Origin: Clostridia bacterium | GTDB taxonomy: Bacteria > Bacillota > Peptococcia > Peptococcales > BICA1-8 | Assembly (NCBI GenBank): GCA_012800195.1 | Contig: JAAZJU010000063.1 | Coordinates: 1-34,233 of the forward strand | Length of the DNA stretch: 34,233 nt | Reading direction: 5' to 3' | Shown here: positions 4,586 through 11,106 of the stretch, in pieces | How positions within the stretch are numbered: the first letter of the stretch is position 1 | Layout of the letters: each line of letters begins with the position of its first letter | Notes under the pieces: generated by a model | Databases searched by the model: none | Seen by the model: the letters and a program-made list of their open reading frames with translations, nothing else | Told to the model about the DNA's origin: nothing | Position numbers and translations under genes: made by a program

Positions 4586-5140
4586 ATGTCTTTAATTCTA
4601 GTAATGGGAGGCACTAGGAGCGGGAAAAGTGCTTTCGCAGAGAAACTTGTAGACAAGCTAGCGGATAATGTAGCTTATTTAGCAACAGCCCAATCCTTGG
4701 ACCAAGAAATGGAGGAAAGGATTAACCTTCATAGGCAAAGAAGGCCTGGTAATTGGACAACCTATGAAGAGGCCTTCGAGATTCCTACTATTATTAACAA
4801 TATTAAGAATAAACATAATGTTATTCTTTTAGATTGTATAACTATGTTGGTCACTAATTTGCTACTAAAAGATTTAGATTTTGAAAGAGTTAACAATGAA
4901 ATACTACTGGAAAAAGAGGAATTTGTGTTAAATGAAATAAAAAAAATAATTGACTGTGTAGTAGAGGATGAAGAATGCACTTTGGTAGTTGTCTCTAGCG
5001 AAGTAGGCCTTGGTTTGGTTCCTCCAGATACAATTAGTAGAGCCTATAGGGATATTAATGGGAAGTGTAATCAACTACTGGCAGAGAAAGCTGAAAAAGT
5101 TTTTGTTGTTTGGGCTGGTTTGCCAGTTCAGATAAAGTGA
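4586..5140 (+). CDS. cobU: Adenosylcobinamide kinase / adenosylcobinamide-phosphate guanylyltransferase
   Basis: CobU is a cytoplasmic bifunctional enzyme. It phosphorylates adenosylcobinamide and then transfers GMP from GTP, giving AdoCbi-GDP for CobS. The P-loop GGTRSGKS is at residues 8-15. The histidine that carries GMP is probably His49, in the conserved context RINLHRQRRPGNW, and the family's VSSEVGLGLVP and YRDINGKCNQ motifs follow. At 184 residues the length is normal. The ATG at 4586 has GGGGG upstream at about 4573-4577, overlapping the end of the coiled-coil gene. It is the first recognisable cobamide gene in the cluster. Confidence 0.96.
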   Translation: MSLILVMGGTRSGKSAFAEKLVDKLADNVAYLATAQSLDQEMEERINLHRQRRPGNWTTYEEAFEIPTIINNIKNKHNVILLDCITMLVTNLLLKDLDFERVNNEILLEKEEFVLNEIKKIIDCVVEDEECTLVVVSSEVGLGLVPPDTISRAYRDINGKCNQLLAEKAEKVFVVWAGLPVQIK

Positions 5141-5242: not shown

Positions 5243-6781
5243 ATGGCTAAAACAATAATGCTTCAGGGAACTGGATCTCATGTAGGAAAAAGTGTTTTAA
5301 CGACTGCTTTATGTAGAATTTTTTTTCAGGATGGTTATAGTGTAGCGCCCTTTAAAGGACAAAATATGGCGTTAAATTCCTATGTAACAGTTGATGGAGG
5401 AGAAATGGGGGGAGCTCAAGCTATTCAAGCTGAGGCTTGTAAAATACAGCCAGATGTTTTAATGAATCCTGTATTGTTAAAACCTACCCAGGACTCTGCT
5501 TCCCAAGTTATAGTTTTGGGTAAACCCATGGGTAATCTTTCTGCAAAAGATTATCATGTCCAATATAAAGATAAAGCTTGGCAAGTTATTAAAGATAGTT
5601 TATATAAATTGGCTGATAATTATCAAGTCCTTGTAATCGAAGGAGCAGGAAGTCCTGCAGAGGTTAATTTGAAAGAAAATGATGTAGTTAATATGAGGGT
5701 TGCTAAGGAAATAGGAGCACCTGTATTATTAATTGCTGATATTGATAGAGGAGGGGCCCTAGCCTCAGTAGTGGGTACTTTAGAGCTATTGGACCAAGAG
5801 GAGAGGGATCTGGTTAAAGGAATAATTATCAATAAATTCCGGGGAGACATAAATCTCTTAAAGCCTGCTCTAGACTTTTTAGAAGCTAAAACAGGCAAAC
5901 CAGTGGTAGGGGTAATGCCTTATTTCCAAGGTTTTAGAATACCAGAAGAGGATTCTATAGCTACAGAAAATCTTAACACGGTCTCCACTAGCCAGGATAA
6001 ACTGGATATAGCTGTTATTCATTTACCCTATATTTCTAACTTTACGGATTTTGATGCTTTAACTGGCGAAACCGATGTTGACCTTAGATTTGTTAAAAAA
6101 GGAGATGTTCTAGGCAACCCTGATTTAATAATTATTCCTGGCAGTAAAAATACCCTTCAAGACCTAGAATATCTGGAGAAATCCGGTTTGATTCAGGAAA
6201 TTAGAGATGCCTCTAACATAAATAAGATACCTATTATTGGAATAAGCAGTGGTTTCCAAGTTTTAGGGTCAAAAATTATTGTGTCAGAAAAAAATAAAGA
6301 CTTAGTAGAATATCAAGGTTTAGGACTATTAAACACAGAAACTGTAATTGATGCTAAAGAAATTACCACTCAAGTAAAGGGCAAAGTCATAGTCAATGAT
6401 GGTATTTTAAAGAATTGTCAGAATATGCAATTGGAAGGTTATGAAATACATACAGGAAGGACAACCCTAATCGGAGAAGAGGGCAATTCTCCTTTCCTTT
6501 TAACAGAACGCTCTGATCAAGAAATAAACTTTTTAGACGGAGCTATTGGTCAGTCAGGTCAGGTTTTTGGGACACATTTGCATGGTATTTTTGATAATGA
6601 TGTTTTCCGCAGACAGGTTCTTAATAATTTAAGAGAAGCCAAGGGTTGGGAACCTCTTGATATGCCTACCGTAAATACAACTCTTCTCAAAGAAGAAGCT
6701 TATAATAAATTAGCTCAGGTCGTAAGGGAAAATATTAATTTACCATTACTTTATAAGGTGATGGGATTAAAAGATGAGTAA
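5243..6781 (+). CDS. cobQ: Cobyric acid synthase, with Ser at the usual glutaminase Cys
   Basis: CobQ (CbiP) amidates the b, d, e and g carboxyls of adenosylcobyrinic a,c-diamide using ATP and ammonia, normally taken from glutamine. It has 512 residues, a normal length. The N-terminal dethiobiotin-synthetase-like ATPase domain begins LQGTGSHVGKSVLTTALCR (8-26) with FKGQNMALNS (38-46) after it. The C-terminal half is a class I glutaminase-like domain with PGSKNT (299-304) and the catalytic-type histidine in GTHLHGIFD (His447). At the nucleophile position, where the family has GICGGY, this protein reads GISSGF (333-338), so Ser335 (AGC at 6245-6247) replaces Cys. The frame is otherwise intact. 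The cbiB start overlaps the stop by 8 nt. Confidence 0.95.
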   Translation: MAKTIMLQGTGSHVGKSVLTTALCRIFFQDGYSVAPFKGQNMALNSYVTVDGGEMGGAQAIQAEACKIQPDVLMNPVLLKPTQDSASQVIVLGKPMGNLSAKDYHVQYKDKAWQVIKDSLYKLADNYQVLVIEGAGSPAEVNLKENDVVNMRVAKEIGAPVLLIADIDRGGALASVVGTLELLDQEERDLVKGIIINKFRGDINLLKPALDFLEAKTGKPVVGVMPYFQGFRIPEEDSIATENLNTVSTSQDKLDIAVIHLPYISNFTDFDALTGETDVDLRFVKKGDVLGNPDLIIIPGSKNTLQDLEYLEKSGLIQEIRDASNINKIPIIGISSGFQVLGSKIIVSEKNKDLVEYQGLGLLNTETVIDAKEITTQVKGKVIVNDGILKNCQNMQLEGYEIHTGRTTLIGEEGNSPFLLTERSDQEINFLDGAIGQSGQVFGTHLHGIFDNDVFRRQVLNNLREAKGWEPLDMPTVNTTLLKEEAYNKLAQVVRENINLPLLYKVMGLKDE

Positions 6782-7727
6782 CTTTACAATATTATTAGCC
6801 TATATAGTTGATTTAATTGTGGGGGATCCTCCAAGGATACCCCATCCTGTAATTATTATAGGTAAATTAATTTCTAAGCTAGATGGTTTTTTTTATCGTA
6901 GTGACCAATCAAATAGGTATAAGCTATTTTCCGGTGGTTTAGTGGTACTATTAATTCTCTTAGCAACCTATGGTTTTACCTATAGCCTTATTTACTTTCT
7001 AAATACTATCCATCCCTGGTTAAGCTGGTTAGCAAGTATTTGGCTGATTTCAACAACAATCTCTGCTAAAGGATTAAAGGATGTAGGTTTAGAAATTCAA
7101 AAATTATTGAAAGAAAAAAACCTCCCTGAGGCTAGGAAAAAGGTGGGCTATATTGTGGGCCGAGATACGGACAATCTGGATGAAAAAGAGCTTAGCCGAG
7201 CCACAGTGGAAACAATTGCTGAAAATATTGTTGATGGAGTAACCAGTCCTCTATTTTATGCTTTTATTGGGGGTGCACCCTTGGCCATGACTTATAGGGC
7301 TGTTAATACTATGGATTCTATGTTAGGGTATAAAAATGATAAGTATTTATATTTTGGTAGAATAGCAGCAAGAACGGATGATGTGTTTAATTTTATACCA
7401 GCAAGGCTAACTGGATTAGCCATTGTTTTGGTAGCTCTATTATTACCCCAATTTTCAGGACGAGAGGCTTTAAAAATATTTTTAAGGGATAGCAAAAACC
7501 ATCCTAGTCCCAATAGTGGGTATAGTGAAAGTGCTGTAAGTGGCGCTTTAAGAATCCAGCTAGGTGGAATTAATTATTATCAAGGTAAAAAATCAGTTCG
7601 ACCTTACATGGGAGAGCCTATTAATGAGCTAAATCATATCATGATACCCAATACCATAACAATCATGCTTGCAGCCAGCTTTTTCTGGGCTTTAATTTTG
7701 ACTCTAATAAATTTTTTAGGCTTTTAA
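6774..7727 (+). CDS. cbiB: Adenosylcobinamide-phosphate synthase
   Basis: CbiB (CobD in Pseudomonas nomenclature) is an integral membrane enzyme that joins aminopropanol phosphate to adenosylcobyric acid. The protein has 317 residues with the N-terminal signature DLIVGDPPRIPHPV (13-26) and hydrophobic segments near residues 5-20, 50-75, 80-97, 210-225 and at the C-terminus. Conserved cytosolic motifs such as GRDTDNLDEKELSRATVETI and NSGYSESAVSGAL are present. The ATG lies inside the last codons of cobQ (8-nt overlap), so translation is coupled. Its substrate arm is made by the PduX and CobD proteins encoded downstream. Confidence 0.96.
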   Translation: MSNFTILLAYIVDLIVGDPPRIPHPVIIIGKLISKLDGFFYRSDQSNRYKLFSGGLVVLLILLATYGFTYSLIYFLNTIHPWLSWLASIWLISTTISAKGLKDVGLEIQKLLKEKNLPEARKKVGYIVGRDTDNLDEKELSRATVETIAENIVDGVTSPLFYAFIGGAPLAMTYRAVNTMDSMLGYKNDKYLYFGRIAARTDDVFNFIPARLTGLAIVLVALLLPQFSGREALKIFLRDSKNHPSPNSGYSESAVSGALRIQLGGINYYQGKKSVRPYMGEPINELNHIMIPNTITIMLAASFFWALILTLINFLGF

Positions 7728-7759: not shown

Positions 7760-8494
7760 ATGAAAGGATTTATTATTGCCTTACAATTTATGACTAGGAT
7801 TCCTTTATTCATCACAATAGAAATGGATAATAAAGATTTTGGTCGTTCTAGTAGATTTTTTCCCTTAGTTGGACTTGTCATAGGGACAATTCTTGCTTTG
7901 GCATATTATTTTGCAAATTGGTTTTTCCCACCATTGGTATTAGGGGCTTTAATCTTAATTTTAGAAATAATAATTACCGGTGGTATACATTTTGATGGTT
8001 TTATTGATACAATGGATGGGATATTATCGGCTAGACCTAGGGAACGGGTTTTTGAAATTATGAAAGATAGTAGGGTTGGGGCCCATGGAGTTACAGCCTT
8101 ATTATGTTTAGTTTTATTAAAGTTTTCTTTACTAGTTTCTTTATCATCAAGTTATATTCTTTTTATTTTATTATTAATGCCCGTGTTAGGCAGATGGGCC
8201 ATGGTTTTTTGTTTAGCTTTCTTTCCTTATGCTAAACCTGAAGGTTTAGGAAAGATTTTTTGGGAAGAGACAGATAAAGTCCAATGGTATTTAATAACTG
8301 GTTTGATTTTTTTATTATCTTTTATTTTCTTGCCTAATGTATTTTTAATAATTTTTGTAATAACATTATTGGTAGCCTTAACGCCAATGCTTTTAATCAA
8401 TAAAAAGCTACAGGGCCATACAGGGGATACATATGGAGCAATAAATGAAATTACCGAAGTTATTTTCCTTTTAATCTGCTTACTAGTTCTTTAG
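7760..8494 (+). CDS. cobS: Adenosylcobinamide-GDP ribazoletransferase (cobamide synthase)
   Basis: CobS is an integral membrane enzyme that condenses AdoCbi-GDP with alpha-ribazole or alpha-ribazole phosphate, making the complete cobamide or its 5'-phosphate. The 244-residue protein has the family's acidic metal motif HFDGFIDTMDGILSARPRER, with Asp79, Asp83 and Asp86, then MKDSRVGAHG (Asp103), and ends in GHTGDTYGAINEITEV. There are about six hydrophobic segments. The start ATG 7760 is preceded by AGGGTG. It sits 32 nt after cbiB, so the two membrane-bound assembly steps are encoded side by side. Confidence 0.95.
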   Translation: MKGFIIALQFMTRIPLFITIEMDNKDFGRSSRFFPLVGLVIGTILALAYYFANWFFPPLVLGALILILEIIITGGIHFDGFIDTMDGILSARPRERVFEIMKDSRVGAHGVTALLCLVLLKFSLLVSLSSSYILFILLLMPVLGRWAMVFCLAFFPYAKPEGLGKIFWEETDKVQWYLITGLIFLLSFIFLPNVFLIIFVITLLVALTPMLLINKKLQGHTGDTYGAINEITEVIFLLICLLVL

Positions 8495-8520
8495 ATCTAA
8501 TATCCAATGAGGTGTTTAAC

Positions 8521-9441
8521 ATGAAAAGTACTTTCCGGGCTCCAGGAGCATGTGGAGAATTAGTTCAAGGTACAATTAATAACATTAATTTTCTTATTAC
8601 TTGTCCTATAAATATATTTTCTTATGTTACTGTTGAATTAAATAAGCAAGATTTTATTACCATTAATGATCCCAAAAGGAAAAAGGTAATTAAAGCTGTT
8701 AATTCAACCATGTCCCATATACTGGGGAAAAGGCAAGGAGCTACAATTACAGTCAATAGTGAAATACCAATAGGTAAAGGTCTGGCTAGTAGTACGGCGG
8801 ATATTACAGCCGCTTGTGTGGCAACGGCTCATGTTTTAAATTATAAGATTAGTTATGAAGAAATAGCCAAAATAGCCCTAAGTATAGAACCTACTGATGG
8901 GCTTTTTTATCCTGGAATAGTTGCTTTTGATCATGTTAAAGGAAACTATTATCAAAAAATAGGCGATGCTATTCCCATAGACATCTTAATCTTTGATTTT
9001 GGTGGTACTGTAGATACCATTGCCTTCAATCAAAGGAAAGATTTAGGAGAAAAAAATCAAAGCAATGAAAAACAAATTAAACATGCATATGAGCTGATTA
9101 GAAAGGGCTTAATGGATAAAAACCCTGCCTTAGTTGGGGAAGGTGCTACTATAAGCTCCTTACTAAATCAATCTATTTTATATAAGCCCCATTTAGAAGA
9201 TATTGCAGATTTAGTTATTAATTTGGGAGCTTTAGGCATAAATGTTGCTCATAGTGGGACTATATTTGGGATTTTATTAGAAAAAAATAAGTTAAATCCA
9301 AAAGATATAATAGGTAAAATCCAAAAGAAATACCCCTCTCTAAAATATTTAGGGGAATATACTTTGATAAATGGCGGAATAGCAAGGGAATTAGAGGAGG
9401 AAACTCTATGGTTCAAATCAGAAAACATGGCGGCAACTTAA
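8521..9441 (+). CDS. pduX: L-threonine kinase, GHMP family
   Basis: PduX phosphorylates free L-threonine to L-threonine O-3-phosphate, the substrate of CobD. This is a GHMP-kinase-fold protein: N-terminal FRAPGACGELVQG (5-17) is typical of PduX, and the ATP-binding motif PIGKGLASSTAD is at 83-94. With ATG 8521 it has 306 residues. A GTG at 8512 lies inside the Shine-Dalgarno sequence GAGGTG (8509-8514), so I reject it as the start. The end overlaps cobD by 34 nt, implying coupled translation. Other GHMP kinases such as homoserine kinase are less likely given the cobamide context and the PduX-like N-terminus. Confidence 0.88.
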   Translation: MKSTFRAPGACGELVQGTINNINFLITCPINIFSYVTVELNKQDFITINDPKRKKVIKAVNSTMSHILGKRQGATITVNSEIPIGKGLASSTADITAACVATAHVLNYKISYEEIAKIALSIEPTDGLFYPGIVAFDHVKGNYYQKIGDAIPIDILIFDFGGTVDTIAFNQRKDLGEKNQSNEKQIKHAYELIRKGLMDKNPALVGEGATISSLLNQSILYKPHLEDIADLVINLGALGINVAHSGTIFGILLEKNKLNPKDIIGKIQKKYPSLKYLGEYTLINGGIARELEEETLWFKSENMAAT

Positions 9442-10493
9442 AAGAGGCTAGTGAAAAATACAAAATTCCTGTAGAAAAATTTATTGATTTTAGTGCTAAT
9501 ATAAATCCTTTAGGACCACCAGAGGGAGTTTTTGAAGTTATAAAAGATAATCTGGAAAAAATAACTCAATATCCTGATAGTAGAAATTTAGAAATAAAAA
9601 AAGCTTTGGCCTATTATCTTAATGTGGATATTAATAGTTTAATTTTGGGTAATGGAGCATCAGAGCTTATTTTTTTAATAGTAAATAATTTAAGACCGAA
9701 AACTGCTTGGTTGCCAGTGCCCACTTTTTCAGAATATGAAATAGCTTCTAGAGCAGCTGGAGCTAATATTATACAAGTACCACTACAGGGTGAAAAATTT
9801 AATAAATTCACCATAGACCAGTTAGAAGGTCTAGCTAAAGGGGATATACTCTTTATTTGTAATCCTAATAATCCAACTGGACAATTATATGATGTAAAGT
9901 TATTAAATCACATTTTACAAGCCACTAATGATACTGAAGCTTATCTTGTAATTGACGAATCTTTTTTAGATTTCATTAAAGAACGGAAGGAAGTATCTTT
10001 TATAGAAAAAATCAAGGAATATCCTAGGTTAATAATTCTTTATTCCTTGACTAAATTTTTTGCTATACCCGGTTTAAGATTAGGAGCTATGATTGCCAAT
10101 CCCAAATTGATAGAACAATTCGAATTAGGACGGGATCCTTGGAATGTAAATATTTTTGCTCAATTAGCTGGGAAAGTAGCTTTAGAAGATAAGGAATTTA
10201 TTGAGAAAACCCTAGATTACTTTGAAAATGAAAAAAAGTTTTTCTATACAGAGTTACAACAAATTAAAGGTTTAATTCCCTATGAACCAAAAGCCAATTA
10301 TATCTTTATTAAGCTCTTAGAGCCTAATAATTCTAGTGAAGTTTGTGATCTACTAGCTAGGGATGGCTTCTTAGTTCGTAATTTAAACACTTATCCACTT
10401 TTAGGGGAAAATTATATTAGAGTGGCGATTAAAACTAGGAAAGAAAATTTAATGTTAATTCATTCATTAAAAAAATGTATTAGGGGAATATAA
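9408..10493 (+). CDS. cobD: L-threonine-O-3-phosphate decarboxylase
   Basis: CobD (Salmonella nomenclature) is a PLP enzyme of the aminotransferase class I/II fold that decarboxylates L-threonine phosphate to (R)-1-amino-2-propanol phosphate. The 361-residue protein begins near the conserved HGGN (7-10) and has FSANINPLGPP (28-38), CNPNNPTG (151-158), Asp183 for the PLP nitrogen, and the Schiff-base Lys216 in SLTKFFAIPGLRLG. A histidinol-phosphate aminotransferase is the usual confusion, but the HGGN start and the cobamide neighbours argue for CobD. ATG 9408 has GAGGAGG upstream within the pduX frame, and the gene overlaps pduX by 34 nt. Confidence 0.94.
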   Translation: MVQIRKHGGNLKEASEKYKIPVEKFIDFSANINPLGPPEGVFEVIKDNLEKITQYPDSRNLEIKKALAYYLNVDINSLILGNGASELIFLIVNNLRPKTAWLPVPTFSEYEIASRAAGANIIQVPLQGEKFNKFTIDQLEGLAKGDILFICNPNNPTGQLYDVKLLNHILQATNDTEAYLVIDESFLDFIKERKEVSFIEKIKEYPRLIILYSLTKFFAIPGLRLGAMIANPKLIEQFELGRDPWNVNIFAQLAGKVALEDKEFIEKTLDYFENEKKFFYTELQQIKGLIPYEPKANYIFIKLLEPNNSSEVCDLLARDGFLVRNLNTYPLLGENYIRVAIKTRKENLMLIHSLKKCIRGI

Positions 10494-10494
10494 A

Positions 10495-11106
10495 ATGACT
10501 AGAATAATTTTTGTCAGACATGGTCAAACAATTTGGAATAACCTGGGTAAATATCAAGGGCATACCGATATACCCTTGAGTACTGTTGGTATCATTCAAG
10601 CCCAAAAGACAGCTCAAAGGTTAGCTAAGGAAAATATTGTTGCCATTTATTCTAGTGACTTAATGCGGGCTCGCCAAACTGCTGAAATTATAGGTTCCAA
10701 ACATAATCTAGCTATAAATTATAGTAAAGACTTAAGAGAAATTAATTTTGGCCATTGGGAAGGAAAAACCTATCAAGAAATAGAGAAGGAAGATCCACAA
10801 TTGCTTCAACAGTGGATAGAAGATCCAGAAAAACTAAAAATACCTGATGGGGAGACCTTTAGTGAATTAAGAGATAGGGCCTTTAGGGTTATAAATGATA
10901 TTTTGGCAAAGCATGATCAAGAAACGGTTTTAGTAGTTGCTCATGGGGGTACAATTTCCACTATTTTATGTAAGGTCTTAGGTATGGATTTGAAAAACAT
11001 GTGGCAGATTAAACAGAGTAACTCAGCCATAAGTATTATTGAATTTTACGATAAAAAGGGTATAGTAACATCATTTAATGATACTTATCATTTGGATGTG
11101 TGTTAA
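10495..11106 (+). CDS. cobC: Alpha-ribazole phosphatase-like histidine phosphatase
   Basis: This is a 203-residue member of the histidine phosphatase (phosphoglycerate-mutase-like) superfamily. The phospho-accepting His9 is in VRHGQT, the RARQTAEII motif follows, and a second histidine lies in VVAHGGT. In a cobamide cluster this is best read as CobC, which removes the 5'-phosphate from alpha-ribazole phosphate or adenosylcobamide phosphate. It starts one base after the cobD stop (TAA at 10491-10493, then ATG at 10495). From sequence alone a general phosphatase is possible; context raises the CobC call. Confidence 0.85.
   Translation: MTRIIFVRHGQTIWNNLGKYQGHTDIPLSTVGIIQAQKTAQRLAKENIVAIYSSDLMRARQTAEIIGSKHNLAINYSKDLREINFGHWEGKTYQEIEKEDPQLLQQWIEDPEKLKIPDGETFSELRDRAFRVINDILAKHDQETVLVVAHGGTISTILCKVLGMDLKNMWQIKQSNSAISIIEFYDKKGIVTSFNDTYHLDVC

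Follow-up and report, generated by a model that had tools for sequence, protein, structure and literature searches.

The cobQ gene of the window

How does a cobyric acid synthase obtain its nitrogen when the catalytic cysteine of its glutaminase domain is gone? Glutamine amidotransferases are the textbook case of channelled ammonia, and the use of free ammonia by their synthetase halves is often regarded as a test-tube curiosity. The question is raised by the cobQ gene of a Clostridia bacterium, carried by a stretch of 34,233 nucleotides (contig JAAZJU010000063.1, the window), for which a first-pass annotation had read serine in place of the nucleophile and had offered free ammonia or a separate glutaminase as the source of nitrogen. 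The gene was compared with the remainder of its own genome (G000, a draft of 2.01 Mb in 256 contigs, 96% complete) and with 59 relatives (G001-G059), 60 genomes in total. The features of the locus are as follows.

4586..5140, + strand: cobU-like gene upstream of cobQ, named by eye
5243..6781, + strand: cobQ/cbiP, cobyric acid synthase, 512 aa (NF001989, TIGR00313)
5255..5947, + strand: ATPase (synthetase) domain, residues 5-235, kept (PF01656 above cut-off)
6005..6601, + strand: glutaminase domain (GATase_3), residues 255-453, with retained fold and lost active site (PF07685, 156.7 bits)
6245..6247, + strand: AGC, Ser335 replacing the nucleophile Cys (Cys in 105/105 other alignable rows)
6248..6250, + strand: AGT, Ser336 replacing the elbow Gly (Gly 102/105, Ala 3/105)
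6281..6283, + strand: Val347 replacing Asp (Asp 105/105)
6296..6298, + strand: Lys352 replacing Glu (Glu 104/105)
6359..6361, + strand: Glu373 replacing Lys, aligned with GatD R128 (Lys 105/105)
6575..6577, + strand: His445 replacing Tyr, two residues ahead of the catalytic His (Tyr 102/105)
6581..6583, + strand: His447, catalytic His, kept (His 105/105)
6774..7727, + strand: cbiB (cobD)-like gene overlapping the end of cobQ, named by eye
7760..8494, + strand: cobS-like gene, named by eye
8512..9441, + strand: pduX-like kinase gene, named by eye
9408..10493, + strand: threonine-phosphate decarboxylase (cobD/cobC)-like gene, named by eye
10495..11106, + strand: alpha-ribazole phosphatase (cobC)-like gene, named by eye

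The protein passes the curated cut-offs for cobyric acid synthase along its full length, with 608.9 bits for NF001989 (cut-off 273) and 528.3 bits for TIGR00313 (cut-off 309.9). Its predicted model has a mean pLDDT of 90.3 and places residue 335 between strand 331-334 and helix 336-341, which is the position of the nucleophile elbow; the nearest solved folds retrieved with Foldseek are CTP synthases and GatD, and the GATase fold is present. The elbow, for which GICGGY/F is expected, reads GISSGF instead of the G-X-C-X-G of class I GATases. It lies at 6239-6256, two codons away from the 6233-6250 initially reported, and the serine codon itself, the open frame over 512 aa and the retained partner His447 had been correctly read.

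Location of the changes in CobQ

The serine is not shared by the clade, a possibility that had been left to an alignment of relatives: cysteine stands in 26/26 other readable CobQ copies of the 59 relatives, and a wider scan of named genomes found both Cys and His in 80/80 CobQ loci. A joint alignment was made of 108 rows including the window protein, in which the rows of G001 and G045, devoid of a GATase domain, are counted as gaps beside the 105 rows that all carry Cys. A fragment from G040 (L033) belongs to the 26 readable copies and is absent from this alignment, from which low-scoring matches were dropped.

The GATase half is more altered than the first-pass annotation had seen, since G336S, D347V, P348S, E352K, K373E and Y445H accompany the loss of the nucleophile. 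Where at least 95% of the other rows (n = 107) agree on a residue, the window protein departs at 6/32 sites of the GATase part (C335S, G336S, D347V, E352K, K373E and Y445H) versus 0/64 of the ATPase part (Fisher 0.001). Lowering the threshold to 90% adds R57G and P348S, and 1/76 sites of the ATPase part is then changed. The ATPase domain, initially described as intact, is thus unchanged at the stricter threshold, but R57G is not canonical, Arg being found there in 100/107 other rows. The damage to CobQ is restricted to the glutaminase site and the ATPase side is kept.

Residue 373 lies opposite Arg128 of GatD in a profile alignment. In GatD, glutamine is reported to be bound to R128, the R128A, C94A and H189A variants are all inactive, and the corresponding position is mostly Lys in CobQ (PMC5871853). 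Among the class I triad residues, the window CobQ has therefore kept His and lost both the nucleophile Cys and the glutamine-holding Lys equivalent to GatD R128, and as judged from the sequence its use of glutamine is not expected.

A general decay of the whole GATase domain is not supported, as relative-rate counts against four sister/outgroup pairs do not show it evolving faster than the ATPase domain, which suggests that the fold was held while the active site was lost. A rival reading is that the B12 pathway is unused and that the changes represent neutral drift in a dying gene. Indeed, the window CobQ shows the most departures at conserved sites among the 108 rows (6, next highest 4), and R57G sits in the ATPase half. 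However, the frame is open, cobQ is flanked by intact cob genes and a long cbi cluster is found on contig C179; moreover, decay should also strike the ATPase half, where 0/64 sites are changed, and it would leave unexplained why CarA and PurQ, enzymes of arginine, pyrimidine and purine synthesis, have undergone the same loss. Decay is thus a very unlikely explanation.

Other amidotransferases of the genome

A search of G000 for class I GATase domains returned eight PF00117 places and three PF07685 places, overlapping, whose identities were assigned by eye from sequence. The nucleophile is also lost from CbiA (CEGGG, C342G, codon GGT), PurQ (GIGNGF, C87G, codon GGT) and CarA (GIALGH, C240A, codon GCT). 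His is kept in all three and Glu in PurQ and CarA, and few conserved sites beyond the nucleophile are altered in CarA and PurQ. Among the relatives, Cys is present in 44/44 other CbiA places, 47/49 PurQ and 45/54 CarA. The search of G000 yielded no second, intact version of CobQ, CbiA, PurQ or CarA, and a single-site oddity or sequencing error in CobQ was rejected in view of the same loss in the last three. The nucleophile Cys is intact in two GuaA, PyrG, a C26 hydrolase, PurF and GlmS of this genome.

These other losses bear on the idea that Ser335 serves as nucleophile and that glutamine is still used. Serine is chemically close to cysteine and His447 is kept, but Gly or Ala stands at this position in the other three enzymes and is unable to act, and K373E replaces the very residue that aligns with GatD R128. 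Glutamine is reportedly not used by CPS1 with Ser294 (PMC4655335), and PurF with Ser has undetectable glutamine activity (PMC3261824). A catalytic serine appears exceedingly improbable.

A separate glutaminase could alternatively feed ammonia in trans to CobQ, CbiA, PurLS and CarB, and the two GuaA, PyrG and the C26 hydrolase with intact Cys might be put forward for this role. GATases, however, normally act as part of a fixed complex that contains a tunnel. Furthermore, PF00117 and PF07685 revealed no spare or orphan GATase in G000 beyond GuaA (two intact, one degenerate), PyrG and the C26 hydrolase, and weak PF00117 matches of about the size of the latter also occur in G001, G002, G003 and G004, so that the C26 hydrolase is not peculiar to G000. 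This second proposal of the first-pass annotation is not supported and we give it very little credence. A missing glutamine synthetase was also considered as the cause and is ruled out by two full-length GlnA in G000.

Some further observations were made on these families. Contig C242 encodes a third GuaA-like protein (L041:1474-2763, + strand), whose 430 aa include only a shrunken GATase part and lack the nucleophile elbow; G003, which has the ammonium transporter Amt, carries a similar protein of about 455 aa (L317), and the shrunken form was therefore left out of the pattern. A glutamate-synthase-like protein with an FMN domain, recognized by eye, runs off a contig end (L337:16938-17498, + strand) and has no GATase part in the available piece. 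The CbiA of G006 (L115) presents one in-frame TAG within the matched frame.

Carbamoyl phosphate genes

G000 harbors two full-length carB genes. One stands with the Cys-less carA in the arginine cluster, which seems to span contigs C251, C2 and C171. The other belongs to the pyrimidine operon, whose order, read by eye, is pyrB, pyrC, carB and further pyr genes; no carA remnant was found in the approximately 500 bases separating pyrC from carB, whereas the pyrimidine operon of G002 has carA at the corresponding spot. The search of G000 yielded no CarA that retains a nucleophile.

Outside this genome, CarA without the nucleophile Cys was observed in eight other genomes (L078, L149, L076, L074, L158, L055, L147, L153, L157). 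Several of these proteins also lack the catalytic His, and in family f5 this residue is Asn in 3/3 readable CarA copies. Two slightly differing ends of one carB (L322; L338:1-468) suggest that the draft mixes close strains.

Such mixture, together with the 256 contigs of the draft, could be invoked in favor of an artefact of sequencing, binning or strain mixture. But the losses are spread over three contigs, in full-length proteins and with several altered codons in one gene, and the best matches of CobQ, CarA, PurQ and CbiA are in genomes of the same family. An artefact is almost certainly not the explanation. The first-pass annotation would have given up its reading if close relatives all had Cys and the Ser came from a sequencing error; the relatives do have Cys, but a sequencing error cannot account for altered residues at six conserved columns together with nucleophile losses in four genes.

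CobQ without a glutaminase domain

The CobQ of G001 has 279 aa and consists of the ATPase domain and a C-terminal helix, with no GATase domain and the same neighbour genes, and the CbiA of this genome keeps its Cys. Searches of G001, which is 89% complete and in which part of the carB contig is masked, yielded neither CarA nor PurQ. G000 and G001 have in common an extra GlnA (L281, L279), 86.7% identical and grouping apart from the GlnA of the relatives, so G001 is probably the closest available relative of G000. Similarly short CobQ proteins of 277-281 aa occur in at least eight genomes, G001 included (G001, G045, G371, G307, G392, G351, G309 and G237), and G351 encodes a 512-aa frame in addition to the short one. 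The loci of the short form are L329-L334 and L032. The whole glutaminase domain has thus been deleted from CobQ in the sister lineage and in several distant lineages.

Absence of the ammonium transporter

A cell with a constant surplus of ammonia should have no need of the ammonium transporter Amt. Of the first ten genomes, G000, G001, G007 and G008 had no Amt (PF00909), and these are the four with GATase losses. The search was then widened to the 60 genomes, of which 44 have a readable CarA, the nucleophile being lost from any copy in 9/44. Amt is absent from 9/9 genomes with CarA nucleophile loss versus 8/35 with Cys kept (p = 3.4e-5, for related genomes with no full tree correction). The association holds for genomes at least 90% complete (8/8 versus 6/29), for those of at most 3.0 Mb (9/9 versus 6/24), after collapsing by family and state (6/6 versus 3/19, p = 4.7e-4) and in G010-G059 alone, unseen when the idea arose (6/6 versus 8/29, p = 0.0019). 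When loss in any of the four genes is counted, GATase-less CobQ included, the figures are 12/12 versus 18/48. On the contrary, the 8/35 genomes with an intact CarA that also have no Amt are a point against the ammonia reading.

Glutamine analogues such as DON or azaserine attack these cysteines, and selection by such inhibitors would fit the loss of the attacked residue from several targets in one genome. GuaA, PyrG, PurF and GlmS are targets of glutamine analogues too but keep their Cys, and such selection accounts for neither the missing carA, the GATase-less CobQs nor the association with Amt, which makes it highly unlikely.

Free ammonia as the probable nitrogen donor

The best explanation, to which we give a probability of about 0.8, is that the window encodes a working cobyric acid synthase with a dead glutaminase site that would be fed by free ammonia. 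The ATPase domain would carry out its usual phosphorylation of the corrin side-chain carboxylates, which would then be attacked by free cellular NH3 in place of ammonia channelled from glutamine. CbiA, PurL-PurS and both CarB of G000 would likewise run on ammonia, the presumed cause being a lineage never short of it. We infer, leaning on the association with Amt absence, that ammonia supports the activity of these enzymes in the cell and that the lineage is always ammonia-sufficient.

The free ammonia suggested by the first-pass annotation is well supported, albeit indirectly and from genomic evidence: the nucleophile losses of CbiA, PurQ and CarA, the missing pyrimidine carA, K373E, the GATase-less CobQs and the absence of Amt all point to it. 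Against it stand the relative-rate counts, the small number of further conserved sites altered in CarA and PurQ, and the selectivity of the loss, since GuaA (two copies), PyrG, PurF and GlmS retain the nucleophile Cys. GuaA and PyrG could also run on ammonia, and GlmS is strictly glutamine dependent. E. coli PurF with Cys replaced by Ala or Ser is reported still to use ammonia (PMC3261824). Caution comes from the E. coli carbamoyl phosphate synthetase, which is reported to require very high ammonia, a use called likely physiologically irrelevant (PMC6245113).

On balance, and with less confidence than for CobQ itself, we favor a wider reading in which glutamine was dismantled as nitrogen donor across several pathways, namely carbamoyl phosphate (arginine and pyrimidines), purines and the six B12 side-chain amides, in a setting where ammonia was always available. 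The same pressure would have repeatedly stripped the glutaminase of CarA and CobQ elsewhere, so far, among the 60 genomes searched for the transporter, in lineages without Amt.

At least four enzymes of G000 appear to depend on free ammonia. Later stages are seen in related genomes, such as a CobQ from which the glutaminase domain has been cut out entirely. Free ammonia as a real donor in living bacteria thereby becomes testable, as does nucleophile loss as a mark of ammonia-saturated habitats; if the reading is true, such a niche could be recognized in a genome from the state of these cysteines. Profile searches still label these proteins glutamine-hydrolysing (seen for CarA and CarB), so that metabolic models derived from genomes of this kind may misrepresent these steps.

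Comparison with known systems

Synthetases with a dead or missing glutaminase are already known as a kind. The open-licence papers searched did not describe a bacterium in which several amidotransferases have lost the nucleophile, nor a GATase-less CobQ. In G000 four enzymes of a single genome have lost it in parallel, and the absence of Amt provides an independent correlate.

The window protein resembles the CobQ/CbiP family in its two-domain architecture, operon and NCBIfam scores above cut-off, and differs from it by the lack of the nucleophile Cys and of the glutamine-holding Lys. GatD, of the GatD/MurT pair, is with CTP synthase among the solved glutaminase folds nearest to the CobQ model, but it is a separate subunit with active Cys94, His189 and Arg128. 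Type N NadE, the ammonia-dependent NAD synthetase, is similarly a synthetase using ammonia without a glutaminase; it is regarded as ancestral, the glutaminase having been gained later (PMC3376133), whereas in the enzymes of G000 the glutaminase was lost. The archaeal PurF' also has no N-terminal nucleophile Cys, ammonia use being only proposed (PMC3261824), but it is a class II paralogue beside an intact PurF, whereas no intact CobQ, CbiA, PurQ or CarA was found in G000.

Human CPS1 is a parallel in its make-up: it retains a class I GATase domain with Ser294 in place of Cys, its synthetase part is intact and ammonia is the donor (PMC4655335). CPS1 is a single nitrogen-disposal enzyme of the mammalian mitochondrion, whereas G000 has four biosynthetic enzymes affected in one bacterium. 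The window CobQ would thus be similar to CPS1 in its predicted way of working, with the nucleophile lost and the synthetase kept, and not by descent.
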